Positions 53 through 38,464 of a DNA stretch of 60,639 bases are shown here, piece by piece. The notes under the pieces were generated by a model, which did not search any database, had not been told where the DNA came from, and saw only the letters and a list, made by a program, of their open reading frames with translations. Both the position numbers and the translations under genes were made by a program. The DNA comes from Chloroflexota bacterium (GTDB lineage Bacteria; Chloroflexota; UBA11872). Position 1 is the stretch's first letter, and the number at the start of each line of letters is the position of its first letter. The DNA lies in contig JAPPNP010000051.1 of assembly GCA_028873795.1 (NCBI GenBank), forward strand, positions 1 to 60,639. Direction: 5' to 3'.

Positions 53-1753
53 GAAGTAGCCCTCACGGTCCCGCTCGCGTTCGCGGGCTTTCAATTCGAT
101 GAGCAGACGGATCCCGTCGAGGTCATGCAGGCGCTGCGAGCGATGAGCGGCCGCATGGACATCTTCTGCCAGGCCGGAGCCATCCACGCCGGGAAGTGGC
201 CGTCTGACTTGGTGGCCCTGCTTGAGAGCGGCATCCACGCGGCGGCGCCCCCGCAGCCAGGCCACATCTTTCATCCAAAAACCTGGGTGCTGCGATTCCG
301 CGGTCCGTCCCCAGAGCATTCGTACCGGCTCCTGGTGCTCTCCCGCAACCTCACTGATAGCCGCAGTTGGGACACCATCCTCCGGCTTGACGGGCAGCCG
401 CGGCACCGAACCAGCGCTGGCAGCGAGCCCCTTGCGGAGTTCGTACGCGCGCTGCCCGATTTGGCCGTCGCGCCGCTGCCGCCGAGCCGTCACTCGACAA
501 TCGCCGCACTTGCCGACGAGTTGCGCAGCGTCGAGTGGGAGCTGCCTGCCGGCGTTCGCGAGGCTAAGTTCCACCCCATCGGACTCCGAAACGCGGCCCC
601 GTTTGCGGTTGAGGAGCACTTCCAGGGCTACCGAAAGCTCGCGATCTCACCATTTCTCGGGCCCGGTGCGATTCGGCGTTTCTTCCGGCCCAAGGCCGGA
701 CGGACGGCCGTCCTCGTCTCAAGCGGCGCGGAGCTTAGCGCCCTCCCTCGGGCTGCGCTCGAACACCTGGATGTTTACGAAATCGATCCGACGGCGAGTC
801 TTTCCGGGGATGATGTCGAGGAAGGCGCGTTCCAGACCTTTTCGACAGATCTGCACGCCAAGCTCTTTGTCGTGGAGCGCGCCCGGCTGGCGCATCTCTT
901 TGTCGGCTCCGCCAACCTGACCCACGCTGGCCTCAGCCACAACGTCGAGTTCCTCTGTGAACTCGTCGGCCCGGTCGCGAAGTTCGGGGTCAAAGCGATG
1001 GTCGGCGAAGACGCGCCGTTTCGCGCCATGCTCATGCCCTACGTTGCCTCCGATCCGGCGGAAGTCGACGAATCCAGCACGGCGGAACGGGCGCTCACCG
1101 ATCTGCTGTTTGGCCTTGCGTCTCGCGTTTGCTTTCGCACCACCGTCACAGAGAGTGATGACGCTTGGGTTGTCCGCATTTCGACCGATGACGCGCTCCC
1201 GCGCATTTCCGAAGACATTGATCTCGTCATCGCTCCCCACAATCGCGATGGCGAGACCTATCCACTCAGTCCGGCAGAGCCGGTCGACGTCGAGCTGCCG
1301 CCCCGCGAGCTCGCGGATATCACGGCCTTTCTTCGGCTCACGGCGACCCGGACGGTCGACGGCGAGCCGTTGCAATGCTCGGCCGTGGTCTGTTCGCAGC
1401 TCCAAGGCGCGCCGGACGAGCGCTTCCAGACAATCCTGGCCCGGCAGATCGACACGCCGGAAAAGTTCATGCGGCTGCTCGCCCTGCTCATCGGCTTCGC
1501 TGCCGGCAGTGGCTTGGCTGAGGCCGCGGCGGGCGATGGGCAGGGGAGCTGGTCGGCCGGGGCCGGGCAGGGCGTCCTGGAACTGCTCGCGCGCGCCTTG
1601 GCCGAGAGACCTGAATCCATCGATCACTTGGAGGACATTGTCGAGCACCTCCGCCGGTCACTGAATAGTCCAGCCGTCCTGCCGCCAGGCTGGGACGACC
1701 TATGGGTGCCGGCCCTCGAGGCGCGACGTGCCATGCGCGCAGTGGAAGCATGA
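35..1753 (+). CDS. Phospholipase D-fold nuclease-like protein, N-terminally truncated (572 aa)
   Basis: The protein has two HKD-like halves. The first is HPK at residues 80-82 with SRN at 103-105. The second is HAK at 274-276, followed by E281 (usually D) and GSAN at 291-294. The two halves form one active site in PLD-superfamily nucleases. The first six residues are encoded by the insertion-sequence end; residues 7 onward (EVALTVPLAFAGF) resemble the inside of the family's N-terminal domain, so roughly 30-40 residues are probably missing. It overlaps the helicase gene by ATGA at 1750-1753, which implies translational coupling. PLD plus helicase pairs occur in phage-defence loci such as DISARM (DrmC plus DrmA), but the DUF1998 partner is not seen here. 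Defence function is inferred. Activity of the truncated protein is doubtful. Confidence 0.75.
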   Translation: MCPVWTEVALTVPLAFAGFQFDEQTDPVEVMQALRAMSGRMDIFCQAGAIHAGKWPSDLVALLESGIHAAAPPQPGHIFHPKTWVLRFRGPSPEHSYRLLVLSRNLTDSRSWDTILRLDGQPRHRTSAGSEPLAEFVRALPDLAVAPLPPSRHSTIAALADELRSVEWELPAGVREAKFHPIGLRNAAPFAVEEHFQGYRKLAISPFLGPGAIRRFFRPKAGRTAVLVSSGAELSALPRAALEHLDVYEIDPTASLSGDDVEEGAFQTFSTDLHAKLFVVERARLAHLFVGSANLTHAGLSHNVEFLCELVGPVAKFGVKAMVGEDAPFRAMLMPYVASDPAEVDESSTAERALTDLLFGLASRVCFRTTVTESDDAWVVRISTDDALPRISEDIDLVIAPHNRDGETYPLSPAEPVDVELPPRELADITAFLRLTATRTVDGEPLQCSAVVCSQLQGAPDERFQTILARQIDTPEKFMRLLALLIGFAAGSGLAEAAAGDGQGSWSAGAGQGVLELLARALAERPESIDHLEDIVEHLRRSLNSPAVLPPGWDDLWVPALEARRAMRAVEA

Positions 1754-2271
1754 CGCTCATGACCCGTGAGGGCCCGGCAGGCGCGCTGAGCGACTTTCAG
1801 CAGGCCACCGCCGCGCACGCGTTCCGGCAACTCTATCTCGATCAGGATTCGTCGCGTCGCTTTCTCGTGGCCGACGAGACCGGGCTGGGCAAGACGCACG
1901 TTGCGCGGGAAGTCATCAACCTGACCCTCGACCACCTCCAGCAGGTCGACCGCGTGCGTCGCAGCGACATCGTCTACGTGTGCTCCAACGCAGACATTGC
2001 CGCTCAGAACATTCGCAAGCTCAACGTGGCCGGTTCGGAGACTCCGAGCTTTGCCACGCGGTTGAGTCTGCTGATCACACAGCCGGACGTGCTGAAACCG
2101 ACGGGCGGCAAGGGAAAGCCGGCCACGTTCGTCGCCTTCACCCCGGCCACGTCGTTTCAGTTCGGCTGGCAGTTAGGGACGGCCGCTGAGCGCGCCGTGC
2201 TCTATGTGCTCCTCCGCGGCCACCTGGGCCTGCGACGCGCACGAGCGACGGCGGCAGAGCGGATCTTTTAG
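1750..2271 (+). CDS. Superfamily 2 helicase, N-terminal part (ends at in-frame TAG)
   Basis: Start chosen at ATG 1750, which overlaps the stop of the nuclease gene (ATGA); an in-frame ATG at 1702 would sit inside that gene. The fragment carries Walker A ADETGLGKT (residues 42-49), a motif-Ia-like stretch near residues 75-90 (YVCSNADIAAQN) and a TPATSF segment. It stops at TAG 2269-2271, and the same reading frame continues without a shift into 2278-4944, which holds all remaining helicase motifs. Alone it would be a 173-residue ATP-binding fragment without motif II. It is best read as the first part of a single ~1,064-codon gene broken by one nonsense codon. Confidence 0.8.
   Translation: MTLMTREGPAGALSDFQQATAAHAFRQLYLDQDSSRRFLVADETGLGKTHVAREVINLTLDHLQQVDRVRRSDIVYVCSNADIAAQNIRKLNVAGSETPSFATRLSLLITQPDVLKPTGGKGKPATFVAFTPATSFQFGWQLGTAAERAVLYVLLRGHLGLRRARATAAERIF
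2269..2271 (+). other. In-frame amber codon splitting the helicase
   Basis: TAG at codon 174 of the frame starting at 1750. Flanking residues read ...AAERIF-stop-GFVASRRR..., and in related helicases I would expect Gln at such an 'F-Q-G' position. A single CAG-to-TAG transition therefore explains the break. Alternatives are a base-call error, stop-codon readthrough, or a true split with re-initiation at GTG 2278, which has only a weak AGGGA upstream. Confidence 0.65.
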
Positions 2272-2277
2272 GGATTC

Positions 2278-4944
2278 GTGGCCAGCCGGAGGCGATTCGT
2301 CAAGTCGTACGTCGCTCACGCCGGTGCCAAGCGCTTCGAATCCAGTATTCGTCAAGAGTTTCTGGAGGAGTTCGACCGGAGCGGCGAGCGGGAATCGCTC
2401 CTCGCGCTGATCGATGAAGTCGTGGGACGGCGGGCGCTGACCGCCGGCCAGCACAAATCCGCTCGCAGGATCGTCGGCAGCTTGCGCCAGATGCTCGCGC
2501 GAGCCGCGGTCCAGGCACTGGAGCCGGATCTAGTGATCCTGGACGAGTTTCAGCGCTTTCGGGATCTGCTCGATGTAAAGACCGGCGGCGAAGCGGCCGA
2601 ATTGGCAAATGCCTTGTTCACCCAATCCGACGCGCGCGTGCTCTTGCTCTCGGCAACGCCCTACAAGCCATTCACGTATGCGGAGGAGACAGCGGAAGGC
2701 GGCGGGCACTACGAAGACTTCCTAAAGACCCTGGAGTTTCTCGCTGATTCGGACAAGCCGGTGGACAGCCTTCGCTCCGATCTCGAGGCGCTGCGGCACG
2801 CGGCGCTCTCGGGCGAGCCGACGGCCACGATCCGTGATCGCGTGCAGACCCAGCTTCGGGGATGGATCGCTCGCACGGAACGGCCCACCGACGCCCGCCA
2901 CGTCACCACGCTCGCGCCGACTACGGGCCGGTTCGGTGTCAGGACGGACGACTTCTTGGGCTATGTCGCGTTGCGGCGGGTCGCCGAAGCCGTCAAGGCT
3001 CCGCTGAGCGTCGAGTACTGGAAGTCAGCGCCCTACTTTCTGAACTTCCTGACCGGGTATCGCGTTGGGGAGCACCTCCGCAATGCGATGAAGGTTCCGG
3101 ATCGGCGGGCCGGGCTGATGCCAATGTTTCGTGGCGCACAGCGGATTGCACGACCCAAGGTGCAGCGATTCCGGCCGGTCGAGTGGGCCAATGCTCGTCT
3201 GCGAGCGCTGGCCGAGGAGACGCTAGAGCCGGGCTGGTGGCGATTGCTCTGGATGCCGCCGTCCCTGCCCTACCACCGACTCGGCGGTCCGTACGAGTCG
3301 ATCGATTCGACCGCGACTACCAAGAAGCTCATTTTCTCCAGCTGGGTGGCCGCTCCTTCGGCCATCGCCTCGCTCTTGAGCTACGAGGTCCAGCGGCGGA
3401 TTTTCACGGGCGCGCGGAGATTTGAGAATTCGCCCGCGGCCCGCGCGGCCATTTCGAGACGGCTCGACTATCGGATGGATGAGGGGCGTCCCGCCTCGAT
3501 GTCGGCACTGGCGTTGTTTTGGCCGCAACCGGCGCTGGCGTCCCGCACCGACCCGCTGGACGCTGCCCGTGACCACGCTGACTCGCCGAGCGTGGAGCGT
3601 CTCCTCGAGTGGGCCCAGGAGCGCGCGAAAACCGTCGTCGGTCCGGCTGGCACCACCGCTTCCACGGCGAGCGCGGTCTGGCACTGGTATGCGCCGATAC
3701 ACGCCGATCGGGACGGCTCGCTCTCCTCCGCGCTCCTTGCCACCCACCGGAGTACGTTGACCGAGGCATTGGCGGGGGCCTCGCCTGACCACCCGGCGGA
3801 CGACGTTCCGCGCGCGCTTGACGCGCATGTGGAGCACGCACTCACCGCCCTCGGCGGCGCGAACCCGGAGTCGGAACGACCATCAGACCTGCTGGCAACC
3901 AGCGCGCTTCTTGCCTTAGGAGCACCAGGAAACATCGCTTGGCGAGCGCTCCGCCGGCTGAAGCGAGCGGGCGACCGAGTGACCGAGTTAGGGCGGTGGC
4001 GGGCAGCGGCCATCCTCGCGTCCGGCATGCGGAGCGTGTTCGCTCGGCCTGTCTCGATTCTGCTTCTCGACGGCCTGTACGCAGGTTCCGGCGGCACGCG
4101 CGACGACGACGGCATCTATTGGCGCAGGGTCGCTCGCTACTGCATCGACGGGGGCCTCCAAGCAGTCCTCGATGTGTACATCCACCACCTCGCCGGGGAA
4201 GCAGGCGTTGACACGACCACGGATGAGGGACTGATCTCCCTTGCCGCAATGGCACGGCGCGCAATTGCCGTCCGAGAGTCGGTCTACCGCGCGACCGACA
4301 TCGACAACTTCGACGGCGAGGGAATCGCGTTTCCAAGCAGATACTCCATGCGCTACGGCAGTACGGGCCACGGTCAAGATGAAGCGAGGCTCCCCGAGGT
4401 CCGGGCAGCGTTCAACTCGCCGTTCTGGCCATTCGTTCTCGCGACGACATCCGTCGGTCAAGAGGGCATCGACTTCCATTGGTGGTGCCACTCGGTCGTC
4501 CATTGGGACATTCCCGGCAACCCGGTCGACTTCGAGCAGCGTGAGGGTCGGGTGGACCGCTACAAAGGACACGCGATCCGCAAGAATGTCGCGGCCGCTC
4601 ACCGATTGGCCGCGCTTGCAACAGAGGCGCATGACCCCTGGGCGGCGGCTTTTGAAGCGGCCGTTGCGGACGGCGACCCGGATCTCGGCGGACTCTCCCC
4701 CTTCTGGATATACCCGGGTGATGCCCAGCTCCACCGACGAATCATGGCGCTTCCCTTGAGTCGCGATGAGGATCACTGGGCACGGCTGCAAGAGTCGCTG
4801 GCGCTCTATCGCCTGGCGTTCGGTCAGCCGAGGCAGGAGGACATGGTGGCCGCACTCCAGCGTCGCGGCATCGCTGGGAATCCGGAACGGATGGCGGAGT
4901 TGCGGATCGACCTGCGCCCGCCGGCTCTCGGCCCAATGCGCTAG
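2278..4944 (+). CDS. Superfamily 2 (SNF2-like) helicase, C-terminal part (888 aa)
   Basis: It continues the frame of 1750-2271 after one stop codon. Motif II is DEFQRF (near residue 90), motif III is SATPYK (near 125), a motif-IV-like KLIFSSWV follows near 345, and motifs V/VI are ATTSVGQEGIDF and QREGRVDR (about 720-765). This order is that of a two-lobed SF2 translocase with a long insertion of several hundred residues between the lobes. With Walker A encoded upstream, this piece cannot bind ATP normally by itself. The GTG start at 2278 is simply the first possible codon after the break. In the nuclease-helicase pair it would be the DNA-translocating partner. The gene is probably inactivated unless readthrough or reassembly of the two parts occurs. 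Confidence 0.8.
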   Translation: MASRRRFVKSYVAHAGAKRFESSIRQEFLEEFDRSGERESLLALIDEVVGRRALTAGQHKSARRIVGSLRQMLARAAVQALEPDLVILDEFQRFRDLLDVKTGGEAAELANALFTQSDARVLLLSATPYKPFTYAEETAEGGGHYEDFLKTLEFLADSDKPVDSLRSDLEALRHAALSGEPTATIRDRVQTQLRGWIARTERPTDARHVTTLAPTTGRFGVRTDDFLGYVALRRVAEAVKAPLSVEYWKSAPYFLNFLTGYRVGEHLRNAMKVPDRRAGLMPMFRGAQRIARPKVQRFRPVEWANARLRALAEETLEPGWWRLLWMPPSLPYHRLGGPYESIDSTATTKKLIFSSWVAAPSAIASLLSYEVQRRIFTGARRFENSPAARAAISRRLDYRMDEGRPASMSALALFWPQPALASRTDPLDAARDHADSPSVERLLEWAQERAKTVVGPAGTTASTASAVWHWYAPIHADRDGSLSSALLATHRSTLTEALAGASPDHPADDVPRALDAHVEHALTALGGANPESERPSDLLATSALLALGAPGNIAWRALRRLKRAGDRVTELGRWRAAAILASGMRSVFARPVSILLLDGLYAGSGGTRDDDGIYWRRVARYCIDGGLQAVLDVYIHHLAGEAGVDTTTDEGLISLAAMARRAIAVRESVYRATDIDNFDGEGIAFPSRYSMRYGSTGHGQDEARLPEVRAAFNSPFWPFVLATTSVGQEGIDFHWWCHSVVHWDIPGNPVDFEQREGRVDRYKGHAIRKNVAAAHRLAALATEAHDPWAAAFEAAVADGDPDLGGLSPFWIYPGDAQLHRRIMALPLSRDEDHWARLQESLALYRLAFGQPRQEDMVAALQRRGIAGNPERMAELRIDLRPPALGPMR

Positions 4945-5068
4945 ACCCGCTCGACAATTTCACCGAAGTGGTCGTCGCTCGAGAATCTTTGGGAGTCGGC
5001 GCTGTCCGCGACGAATCCTGCGGTCGGAAATACCGGGCGATGCCTTTGGTGGCGTCGAGTGTCAGGTC

Positions 5069-5866
5069 TCAGGCGAAATCGATGATTATGCGGCAGTGGT
5101 CGCTGGGGCCCCAGTCGTCGGGACTGTTGAGGGCACGGGCGGAGACGCGGTCGGCGATGTTGTCGGTGGCGAAGACGTAGTCGAGTCGTCCCCACGCCTC
5201 CGCGGGTGACTTGCCGATCGGCTTGAAGGTCACGACGTCGCCGCGGTATCCGCGCCGTCCGTCGGGCATGAGGTGGCGAAATCCTAGTGCCCGCATCCGG
5301 TCGAATGCCGTCTGAAAGTGCAGCGCCTCGCGTTCCTTCCAAATCTTGGTTGGGTGGTCGCTCCATCCTTGGAAGATCGACCAGTCGCCGGCGGCAATGA
5401 CGCGGCTGCGACGGCCGACCAAACGCGCCAGGTCCGAGATCAGGCGATGCACCGAGCCGGTAGCCTCGCGACGACTCGGCGAGCCTGACTCACGAGTGAA
5501 ATCGTCGCCGCCGGCAGCCATCGAGATCACGATGACCGCCTCGTCACCGTCGGCCGGCGTAACCACGGCGGCGCCGAGCGTGCCCCACTCGCTCGTATAG
5601 AAGTCGTGGCTGTAGCGACCGCCGATTGGCCGGGTCGCGATGAAGCTGGCGGAGACTTGGTCGGAGAGCCGCGTGACCACGGATGGATACCCCAGCCAGG
5701 CGTCGTGGCGCTCAGGCCAGAGCCTGTAGTCGACGTCGATGCGGTGACGCAGGTCTTCGGGTACGCGTGACGCTTCCTGCAGGAGCGCGATGTCGACATC
5801 GGGCATCTCGACCAATGCGTCCCAGGACCTCCGAGAGTGCGCCATGTTCCAGCAGACGATCTTCAT
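5069..5866 (-). CDS. Endonuclease/exonuclease/phosphatase (EEP) family protein
   Basis: A 265-residue protein of the Mg-dependent EEP (DNase I-like) fold. Visible motifs are CWN at residues 5-7, LLQEA with E31, GDW at 160-162, LDYV at 228-231 and SDH at 255-257. The asparagine usual after GDW (GDxN) is Ser163, a deviation that may alter substrate or activity. There is no signal peptide, so it is probably cytoplasmic. It lies opposite to and about 120 bases downstream of the broken helicase, in the accessory segment left of the tRNA-Leu remnant, so it may be cargo of the same island. Phosphodiesterase, nuclease or lipid phosphatase activity cannot be told apart from the sequence. Confidence 0.75.
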   Translation of the reverse strand: MKIVCWNMAHSRRSWDALVEMPDVDIALLQEASRVPEDLRHRIDVDYRLWPERHDAWLGYPSVVTRLSDQVSASFIATRPIGGRYSHDFYTSEWGTLGAAVVTPADGDEAVIVISMAAGGDDFTRESGSPSRREATGSVHRLISDLARLVGRRSRVIAAGDWSIFQGWSDHPTKIWKEREALHFQTAFDRMRALGFRHLMPDGRRGYRGDVVTFKPIGKSPAEAWGRLDYVFATDNIADRVSARALNSPDDWGPSDHCRIIIDFA

Positions 5867-5965
5867 TGGACCCGGCCGCCAGTCAGTTCAATTCTTCCGT
5901 CCAAGCTGCATGGCAGCATTCCACACCTGCGGAGACCACAAGGACGGCCCGCGATGTCGAGTGGC

Positions 5966-6016
5966 GCCGAGGGCGGGACCCAAACTCGCACGGCCCGACG
6001 GCCACGAGATCCTCAA
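5966..6016 (-). other. Degenerate 3' half of tRNA-Leu (possible integration scar)
   Basis: By my base-by-base alignment, 42 of 51 positions match the 3' half of the intact tRNA-Leu at 6940-6990, from the acceptor strand through the T and variable arms to the anticodon loop. Similarity stops there and no 5' half exists. The T-loop is damaged (UUCGA becomes UUUGG), so it is not a functional tRNA. It has the same orientation as the intact gene, at the distance expected for an attachment-site duplication enclosing a ~970-base unit that contains the ArsR and VOC genes. No integrase is seen. Confidence 0.6.
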
Positions 6017-6041
6017 AACTGCAGCGGGAGACATTGAACTG

Positions 6042-6108
6042 TTGACATGCAAGCGCGCTCTTGCATATCGTGGACCATTGACATGCAAGCGAACACTTGC
6101 CTTAGACT
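6042..6108 (+). promoter_or_regulatory. Tandem palindromic operators and promoter of the ArsR-VOC operon
   Basis: Two copies of TTGACATGCAAGCG begin at 6042 and 6078. Each contains an inverted repeat. The first is ATGCAAG-6-CTTGCAT at 6047-6066, a perfect 7-base arm. The second is ATGCAAG-6-CTTGCCT at 6083-6102 with one mismatch. Each palindrome overlaps a consensus TTGACA -35 hexamer (6042-6047 and 6078-6083). A possible -10, TAGACT at 6103-6108, would start transcription close to the GTG at 6115, giving a nearly leaderless mRNA. This is a classic layout for autorepression by the downstream ArsR protein. Confidence 0.65.
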
Positions 6109-6114
6109 AGTCGT

Positions 6115-6405
6115 GTGGACGTATATCGCGCGATCGCTGACCCAACCCGGCGAGCCATCCTGGATGAACTCGTCGAACGGTCAGGTCAGTCGCTCTTCGA
6201 GATTTGCGCACGCCTGACCATGAAGCACGGCATCAACTCTTCACGCCAGGCGATCACGCAACACCTGGATGTCTTGCAGGCCGCCGGGTTGATTCGCACG
6301 CGGCGCGAGGGCAGGTCGAAGCTTCATTGGTTTGTGGGCAGCCCGCTGAAGGCCATCGCGGAGCGTTGGCCGATCTCGGCCGACGAAGGGGGAGTTGAAG
6401 GATGA
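6115..6405 (+). CDS. ArsR/SmtB-family transcriptional regulator
   Basis: A 96-residue winged-helix protein opening with VYRAIADPTRRAILDEL, the usual ArsR-family start, followed by a recognition-helix region (SRQAITQHLDVLQAAGL) and a basic wing (RTRREGRSKLHWF). No cysteine or histidine cluster typical of metal sensors is visible, so it belongs to the non-metal branch that often pairs with VOC or SRPBCC proteins. The GTG start has no Shine-Dalgarno sequence and lies just after the likely -10 element, consistent with leaderless translation. It overlaps the VOC gene by ATGA (6402-6405). It probably represses its own operon through the two palindromes at 6047-6102. Confidence 0.85.
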   Translation: MDVYRAIADPTRRAILDELVERSGQSLFEICARLTMKHGINSSRQAITQHLDVLQAAGLIRTRREGRSKLHWFVGSPLKAIAERWPISADEGGVEG

Positions 6406-6797
6406 GGATTAACCTGGCCGGCGTCTTCGTGGACGACCAAGAGAAGGCGCTTCGGTTTTACACGGAAACGCTTGGCTTCCAGGTCAAGCACAACATTCCC
6501 TTGGGCGAGTACTCCTGGATCACGGTGGTATCCGCGGAAGACCCGGAGGGGACGGAGTTTCTGCTCGAGCCTGATGCCCATCCCGCGGTCCGTCCGTACT
6601 TGAAGGCGATTGTGGCGGACGGTATCCCCAGCACCTCCTTCGCGGTCGACGACGTGCAAGCCGAATACGATCGTCTCGTGGAAAAAGGTGTGCGCTTCGT
6701 ACAGCCGCCAACCGACCTCGGGACAGTCGTCACGGCGATATTCGACGACACGTGCGGCAACTTGATCCAGATCATGGAGGAGAAACCTCAACCGTAA
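6402..6797 (+). CDS. VOC family (glyoxalase/bleomycin-resistance fold) protein
   Basis: A 131-residue vicinal-oxygen-chelate protein with two beta-alpha-beta-beta-beta modules. It opens with a VFVDDQEKALRFYTETLGF segment and ends with GTVVTAIFDDTCGNLIQIME, where the terminal Glu is a common metal ligand. Members are lyases, dioxygenases or ligand-binding resistance proteins; the substrate cannot be read from sequence. Its start overlaps the regulator's stop, so the pair is one transcript. Together they form a small stress or detoxification cassette between the tRNA-Leu fragment and the intact tRNA-Leu, and may have arrived as a mobile unit. Confidence 0.85.
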   Translation: MRINLAGVFVDDQEKALRFYTETLGFQVKHNIPLGEYSWITVVSAEDPEGTEFLLEPDAHPAVRPYLKAIVADGIPSTSFAVDDVQAEYDRLVEKGVRFVQPPTDLGTVVTAIFDDTCGNLIQIMEEKPQP

Positions 6798-6938
6798 CGG
6801 TCGTGAGCCGTCGCACCAGCCCCATGGGACGTGGCCGGTCGCCGACCGCAACGGGGCGCCCCCGAGCATGAAACACACGACTTGACGGATGCCGGGAGGT
6901 CGAGCGCCTGTCTCGCTGATCTGACCGGCGAGTGAGGG

Positions 6939-7022
6939 TGCCGAGGGCGGGACTCGAACCCGCACAGCCCGGAGGCCACTAGCCCCTCAAGCTAGCGCGT
7001 CTACCAATTCCGCCACCTCGGC
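6939..7022 (-). tRNA. tRNA-Leu(GAG)
   Basis: Reading the reverse strand gives an 84-base class II tRNA. The acceptor GCCGAGG pairs with CCUCGGC, the D arm contains GGUAGAC, and the anticodon stem CUAGC/GCUAG encloses loop UUGAGGG with anticodon GAG. There is a long variable arm and an intact T-loop UUCGAGU. CCA is not encoded. The 3' end faces left, towards the accessory region, as expected for a gene used as an integration target. Confidence 0.95.
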
Positions 7023-7141
7023 CGGGCGCTCGATTATAGGCGCGGCGATGCGGCCCTGTGCGCGGTCGGCCTTCTCACGTCCTAGCGCCGCATGGTGATC
7101 CGGCACCGGCAGGCATCCTCGACTCGTCGGTTGAGTTTTGG

Positions 7142-12074: not shown

Positions 12075-12543
12075 GGGCAACCACAAGGGTTGCCCCTACA
12101 AGGACTCCAATTGCCGGGCCGGCGACCCCTTAAGGGCAGGTTTGAGACCTGCCCCTACCGAACCCAGTCGGCCGCCCTAATTCGGGTACGCCACAAACCC
12201 CGATCCGGCGCAGAACGACCGCGAGAATCCCGTGCGCCGCCGGATCAGATGAAAGGTGGATTCCCGCCTCCGCGGGAATGACGGATGGGGTGTGCAGGAT
12301 TCCCAAACGGGCAGGTTAGAAACCTGCCCCTACCGATCGCGGCTTCGGCAACTCACCAGTTCAGCCGTAGGGGCGGTCTGAGACCCGCCCGACGCCAAGC
12401 GTCCGGCGTGCCCCCAGATCTAACCGGACTGGATTCCGGCCTCCGCCGGAATGACGGAGGGGTTACGTCAGCGTTTCGAGCAGGGGAGGTTTGAAACCTG
12501 CCGCTACCGGTTCGGTCGTAGGGGCGGGTGTCAGACCCGCCGG
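12075..12543. repeat. Cluster of eight palindromic repeats in a gene-free interval
   Basis: The 569-base gap 12015-12583 is almost wholly repeats. GTAGGGGC-family hairpins sit at 12075-12099, 12134-12158, 12309-12333, 12367-12391, 12483-12507 and 12518-12543, in both orientations and with different loop and stem sequences. Two GATTCC-type hairpins sit at 12255-12284 (stem CCCGC/GCGGG) and 12431-12457 (stem CCGGC/GCCGG). Arms co-vary between copies (for example GGGCAGG/CCTGCCC and GGGCGGT/ACCCGCC), so the hairpin rather than the sequence is conserved. No coding sequence is supported here. Confidence 0.85.
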
Positions 12544-37860: not shown

Positions 37861-38129
37861 GTTGAATTCCCGCCTTCGGAGACCCTTGCAGAATGCAGCC
37901 GGGCTTGGGGGTGACCGGGCGCATCCCTTCTGCCGCCAGGTTCAATGAGGGGTGGATTCCCGCCTTCGCGGGAATGACGGAGGGGCGACGCATGGCCCCC
38001 GAGGGTGGGTGGGCGGTGAGAGTCCGCCAGCACCATCGCAGGATTCGGAATCCGCGTAGGGGCGCCCCTTGTGGGCGCCCGGGGATGAAGCGACCGTCCG
38101 ATGCGGGCGGCCACAAGGGCCGCCCCTAC
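37861..38129. repeat. Repeat block: composite copy 3 and two GTAGGGGC hairpins
   Basis: The composite unit occupies 37861-37980, ending in GATTCCCGCCTTCGCGGGAAT plus GACGG. GTAGGGGCGCCCC...GGGCGCCC lies at 38056-38084, and GGGCGGCCACAAGGGCCGCC with CTAC at 38105-38129. The last hairpin supplies the TAG stop (38126-38128, reverse strand) of the OB-fold gene. Confidence 0.8.
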
Positions 38130-38464
38130 GGCGGATTGACCGGCTCGAAGATTGGGCCGCGCTCGGGGTCGACGCATTGCAGTCGAACCCGGGCGCCCAG
38201 CTCGCGCCCGGCTTCGCCGATCAGGCGCCCCATGATGCGCACGCCACCTTCGAGCTCGACCATGGCCACCGTGTAGGGCGCTTCGTCGGCGTAGCGCGCG
38301 GGAGGAATATGGATGGTCGTCCAAACGACGATCCGACCATCACCCGGGATCTCGTGCGGCTCGAGGTCGGGACGCCCACACATCGGGCAGGCATCACCGC
38401 GCACCGTGACCGGTTGCCCGTCGAGACGACTGCGATAGACCGTCAGCCGAGGCGGATTAGTCAT
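38126..38464 (-). CDS. Zn-ribbon OB-fold (DUF35-type) protein
   Basis: A 112-residue acyl-CoA-associated OB-fold protein. One CxxC is present (CPMCG at ~26-30), where the family usually has two, so the rubredoxin-like ribbon is incomplete. The OB part is GRIVVWTTIHIPPARYADEAPYTVAMVEL. ATG 38464 overlaps the thiolase stop by 8 bases, so the two are coupled. DUF35 proteins form channelling complexes with thiolases or HMG-CoA synthase. The stop comes from an intergenic repeat, so the original C-terminus may have been slightly different. Confidence 0.8.
   Translation of the reverse strand: MTNPPRLTVYRSRLDGQPVTVRGDACPMCGRPDLEPHEIPGDGRIVVWTTIHIPPARYADEAPYTVAMVELEGGVRIMGRLIGEAGRELGARVRLQCVDPERGPIFEPVNPP

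Follow-up and report, generated by a model that had tools for sequence, protein, structure and literature searches.

Cis-mobilizable elements (CIMEs) are flanked by att sites and hold no genes for integration or transfer, and their accretion in tandem at tRNA genes has been reviewed, with ICESt1-related elements among the examples (PMC5704250; Pavlovic et al. 2004, cited there). The ssrA-specific genomic islands of Dehalococcoides, which belongs to the same phylum as the bacterium studied here, lie in tandem downstream of one RNA gene, carry 20-bp repeats of its 3' end and use a serine recombinase, and 15 of these islands have no integration module (PMC3146451). In Methylophilaceae, which belong to another phylum, additive flexible genomic islands are built of segments of 330 bp to 42 kb with recurring 20-bp repeats of the 3' end of tRNA-Lys, and tycheposons, as described in the same paper, are cargo elements of 4-200 kb with a tRNA border and a tyrosine recombinase (PMC10872708). 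A search of the open-licence literature found these precedents and no published account of tRNA-Leu islands in the bacteria studied here.

The window, that is the whole stretch of DNA that was analysed, comprises 60,639 nucleotides of an uncultured Chloroflexota genome (G000), and its features are collected in Table 1 with those of the relatives. The original prediction held that a degenerate 3' half of tRNA-Leu and an intact tRNA-Leu gene bracket an ArsR-VOC gene pair, and this was confirmed. In an ungapped scan of the window, the outer copy matched the repeat within the tRNA gene at 44 of 55 positions, the runner-up places reached 31 on the same strand and 32 on the other, and the top score in 100 block-shuffled windows was 34. 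The match is the one seen before, whose earlier extent (start at 5966, 42 of 51 positions) had been slightly trimmed. The 55-bp repeat runs from tRNA position 32, the first base of the anticodon loop, to the 3' end of the tRNA. Likeness of the remnant to an unrelated tRNA would have told against the prediction; in a search of the whole genome (3.18 Mb) its top non-self match was tRNA-Leu(GAG) (81% over 54 nt, E 1.5e-8), followed by a far weaker one of 34 nt at another locus (E 0.004), which ruled out a different source tRNA. Since the genomes of the named relatives, and probably those of the other relatives too, were assembled from metagenomes, a chance similarity or an assembly artefact has to be considered, but the distance from the shuffled maximum and the recurrence of the structure in several genomes with separate assemblies make such an explanation extremely unlikely.

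Table 1. Features of the tRNA-Leu(GAG) site in the window and of the corresponding arrays in relatives.
Feature	Position or genome	Strand	Basis or remark
Intact tRNA-Leu(GAG), target gene	6937-7022	minus	ARAGORN
att repeat within tRNA (tRNA positions 32-86)	6937-6991	minus	many other copies in the array genomes have the same sequence
Outer att copy, decayed 3' half of tRNA-Leu(GAG), 44/55	5963-6017	minus, tRNA orientation	ungapped scan
Inserted ArsR-VOC segment	6018-6936		missing from the G003 site, which has the same flanks; between two 55-bp repeats in G001
First palindrome, TGCAAG-N6-CTTGCA, probable ArsR operator	6048-6065		pattern search; kept in relatives
Second palindrome, TGCAAG-N6-CTTGC, probable ArsR operator	6084-6100		pattern search; kept in relatives
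ArsR/SmtB-type repressor, 96 aa	6115-6405	plus	Pfam HTH_20
VOC/glyoxalase-family protein, 131 aa	6402-6797	plus	Pfam Glyoxalase
tRNA-proximal segment end, ctgaccggcgagtgag type	6913-6936		resembles the protease-segment end and the G005 IntB-element end
Repeats on G001 C30	164522, 165496, 189473		decayed copy at 161983
Repeats on G002 C31	254992, 288283		tRNA at 331642; partial copy at 252436
Repeats on G005 C10	328762, 346286, 404965		plus decayed or partial copies
IntA	G001, G002, G004, G007, G011
IntB	G005, G011
IntC	G001, G002, G012

Counting one copy of the repeat, the ArsR-VOC segment is 974 bp long, and between the two repeats only the ArsR and VOC genes were found, with no integrase. 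The start of the VOC gene (6402) overlaps the stop of arsR (6405), and the closest solved chain to the VOC protein is 4g6x_A (E 6.8e-50). A search for the pattern TGCAAG-N6-CTTGC returned 3 hits vs 0.04 expected; the two palindromes that lie 5' of arsR, at 6048 and 6084, are conserved in relatives and are probably ArsR operators.

Comparison with relatives, which had been proposed as a check, revealed the insertion polymorphism. In G003, a member of the same genus, the same flanks occur without the insert: window positions 59-6016 align in one block at 81% to C26:84909-78958, which ends in 54 bases that form the 3' half of an intact tRNA, and positions 6935-7053 align to C26 79013-78895. The left flank thus runs straight into the intact tRNA and ArsR-VOC is absent from the site, which supports the claim of insertion into the tRNA gene. 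A different copy of ArsR-VOC, 79% identical, is located elsewhere in G003 (C24). A tree built from 4.9 kb of flanking DNA puts G000 and G003 close together, with the outgroup unreliably placed; because of this closeness, the difference may possibly reflect loss of the segment in G003 rather than gain in G000.

The chromosome to the left is shared with five relatives up to a defence module, and this synteny supports the view that the whole left side is chromosomal. The module, whose proteins were identified by PADLOC as ZacB and ZacC, occurs in G000, G001, G003 and G005; G002 and G004 do not have it. Its ZacB-matching protein with a PLD domain (35-1753, E 8e-139, PADLOC) adjoins a split ZacC-matching gene (1702-4944), which consists of two open frames of 189 and 888 aa in the window and is a single frame of 1078-1188 aa in G001, G003 and G005. 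The original prediction had taken the position of this broken module, further out on the 3' side, as a sign of tandem integration. No tRNA-like repeat scoring above shuffled sequence was found at its left edge, and the module is not shown to be a unit of the tandem, yet the end of the stretch adjoining the remnant on the left resembles the ends of IntC-type elements, and for this reason the stretch may itself be an old element. Beside the remnant lies an endonuclease/exonuclease-like gene on the minus strand (5069-5866), and a second copy with 74% DNA identity is found in the IntB element of G005 (C10:383226-384068). Further along the window, positions 12256-12508 give short matches in G001, G003 and G004 that are partly off the syntenic order, possibly as a dispersed repeat, and positions 38050-38140 are matched at many scattered places in every genome of the genus and probably represent a repeat family.

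Tandem integration at one tRNA, which the original prediction had regarded as likely, is directly seen in relatives, because arrays of the repeat with adjoining tyrosine recombinases occur in G001, G002 and G005. In each of these genomes, one contig bears the 55-bp repeat at least three times, always in the same orientation and at distances of 1 to 59 kb. The outermost copies are the most decayed (33-35/55 in the three array genomes, 44/55 in G000), and the inner ones are identical or nearly so; such an outward gradient fits stacking at the tRNA, since each new element would displace the old 3' half outward. The same ArsR-VOC segment lies between the G001 repeats 164522 and 165496, with the tRNA on another contig. 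Its left repeat is down to a few bases in G005, and in G004 other DNA stands in place of its right end, so that one boundary is kept in each. Right after the truncated G004 segment there is a 125-nt copy of the left chromosomal edge (C38:164438-164562). Between the outer repeat and ArsR-VOC, G001 carries a segment of 2.5 kb (C30:162129-164267) whose single gene codes for a trypsin-like protease of 712 aa and which has no integrase. This segment is also found in G002 and in G005, where it precedes ArsR-VOC as in G001, and G004 has two such genes; unlike G001, G000 has no protease segment between the outer copy and ArsR-VOC. General homologous recombination between tRNA-derived repeats could explain this missing segment, and in its full form such a reading takes the repeat as a passive duplication and the locus as shaped without any integrase. 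However, the repeat copies share their end point at tRNA position 32 to within a base, integrases adjoin the repeats, and the same integrase types recur across genera, and we therefore regard homologous recombination as an improbable origin of the locus.

Tyrosine recombinases, matched to PF00589 only, lie no more than about 1.2 kb from repeats in G001, G002, G004, G005, G007, G011 and G012, and fall into three related subtypes with 36-55% identity between them. IntA has 90-97% protein identity across two genera (four copies compared), whereas the single chromosomal stretch of about 1 kb that was matched in the other genus has 69% DNA identity. The integrase-bearing elements of G002 and G005 encode a TrwB/HerA-like ATPase (tested in both), and a Replic_Relax protein was found in G002, where it was tested; these larger elements look like mobilizable islands, and their content is compatible with mobilization. 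They also carry defence-type genes (DNA methylase, DUF499, DUF1156 and PAPS-reductase-like proteins). On G002 C31, the cargo of the IntC element includes SMC-like and PAPS-reductase-like genes, and that of the IntA element DNA methylase and HEPN/DUF499 genes. No viral contig with the att sequence was found in one exact scan.

A search with IntB gave E 6e-112 or better in G001, G002, G004 and G005. In G000 and G003 it returned distant proteins only (best E 5e-23 and 2e-24, 32-33% identity), and no close homologue of the integrases of this site was detected in either assembly. The ArsR-VOC segment is thus without a resident helper in the assembled G000 genome. The expected stacking of several elements holds for the arrays of the relatives, while in G000 a single insert, without cognate integrase, is left between remnant and tRNA.

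The segment ends were then compared with those of other units. The ArsR-VOC end of G001 matches the protease-segment end and the IntB-element end at 13 of 22 positions each (random P about 0.005), and against the IntB-element end the G000 copy scores 12/22 and the G005 copy 9/22; these modest scores are suggestive of a link to IntB. For the protease segment the similarity of ends is a strong indication of such a link, with 18 of 22 positions shared between its G001 end and the G005 IntB-element end. When aligned with ArsR-VOC copies outside tRNA sites, the segment shows a sharp left boundary at the bases AAG, common to att and to the non-tRNA context: homology starts at the last bases of the att repeat and fades on the right before the final 24 bases or so. 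As to descent, the ArsR-VOC copies found in the arrays group in one clade (support 0.91). The non-tRNA copies of G002 and G003 are more distant from this clade than are copies from another genus and another family. ArsR-VOC has 88-90% DNA identity to a different family vs 67% for a chromosomal stretch, which, with the placement of the clade, points to horizontal transfer.

Taken as a whole, we consider it highly probable that ArsR-VOC is a cis-mobilizable element without integrase, that the tRNA-Leu(GAG) gene is a hotspot where elements accrete in tandem, and that the segment is stranded in G000, where no helper is present. The tyrosine recombinases of the larger elements would act inside the tRNA gene, at that end of the 55-bp sequence which lies in the anticodon loop. 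An incoming element would bring a fresh 3' half, so that the tRNA stays whole and the old half is pushed outward, free to decay, and repeated insertions would leave a head-to-tail stack of elements next to the tRNA. One unit of such a stack would be the ArsR-VOC segment, with its own promoter and putative operators, whose movement is most likely due to an IntB-like helper or to joint carriage with a neighbour between two att copies. With no cognate integrase in G000, its current mobility there is unlikely.

A more specific origin within the same frame is that ArsR-VOC is the left-over of a larger integrase-bearing element, whose integrase and most cargo were deleted before the species split and which has been inherited since. 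The segment occurs in four species, with the gene pair unchanged and the ends similar, the order of protease segment and ArsR-VOC is common to G001 and G005, and a review derives cis-mobilizable elements, as a rule, from larger elements that have decayed (PMC5704250). Against this, the segment contains nothing besides ArsR-VOC and the flanking context known from non-tRNA copies, which extends nearly to either end, no remnant of an integrase or of mobilization genes is visible in the segment, and G003 is without it; we hold this origin to be a tentative possibility. It could also be proposed that the site is a cassette-collecting platform, in which helper integrases capture chromosomal genes or operons with their native promoter via chance sites, and the resulting units of 1-2.5 kb are exchanged among tRNA att copies of different species, much as in an integron but with no attC. 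The AAG left boundary, and the protease segment as a second such unit, are compatible with this, which nonetheless seems to us unlikely.

Relatives show the site without insert and with long tandem pile-ups, so that it is a genuine landing site for mobile DNA, though of an ordinary kind. One genus of uncultured Chloroflexota thus presents the tRNA-Leu(GAG) hotspot in several states, with no insert in G003, one in G000 and long arrays in G001, G002 and G005, and how far the displaced tRNA halves have decayed roughly indicates the sequence of events. The hotspot helps explain gain and loss of defence-type genes in these bacteria, since its elements carry such genes. The integrase-less units of 1 kb and 2.5 kb stand at the small end of the range for tRNA-borne elements.

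Compared with known systems, the segment is like CIMEs in its flanking att repeats, decayed on one side and within the tRNA on the other, and in holding ArsR and VOC genes without any for integration or transfer. An adjoining integrase-bearing element with the same att, as CIMEs have, occurs in G001 and G005 and not in G000. Unlike known CIMEs, the segment is very small (about 1 kb, two genes), its helper is absent from G000, and its mobilization is putative. An integron gene cassette was rejected because the boundary repeats are tRNA 3' halves and not attC. The ArsR-VOC segment, about 1 kb and without recombinase, was not assigned to the tycheposons, which it resembles in the tRNA border and, through the larger elements of relatives, in the tyrosine recombinase. 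The arrays of G001, G002 and G005, in which variable segments are parted by 3' repeats of one tRNA, agree with additive flexible genomic islands, those of Methylophilaceae differing in tRNA and repeat length. The Dehalococcoides islands are alike in their tandem arrangement, their 3'-end repeats and the many members without integration module, but an ssrA-specific island was rejected here, the target being tRNA-Leu(GAG) with a 55-bp repeat and the linked enzymes tyrosine recombinases (PF00589). What is new relative to these precedents is the tRNA-Leu(GAG) target, the 55-bp repeat and the very small units.
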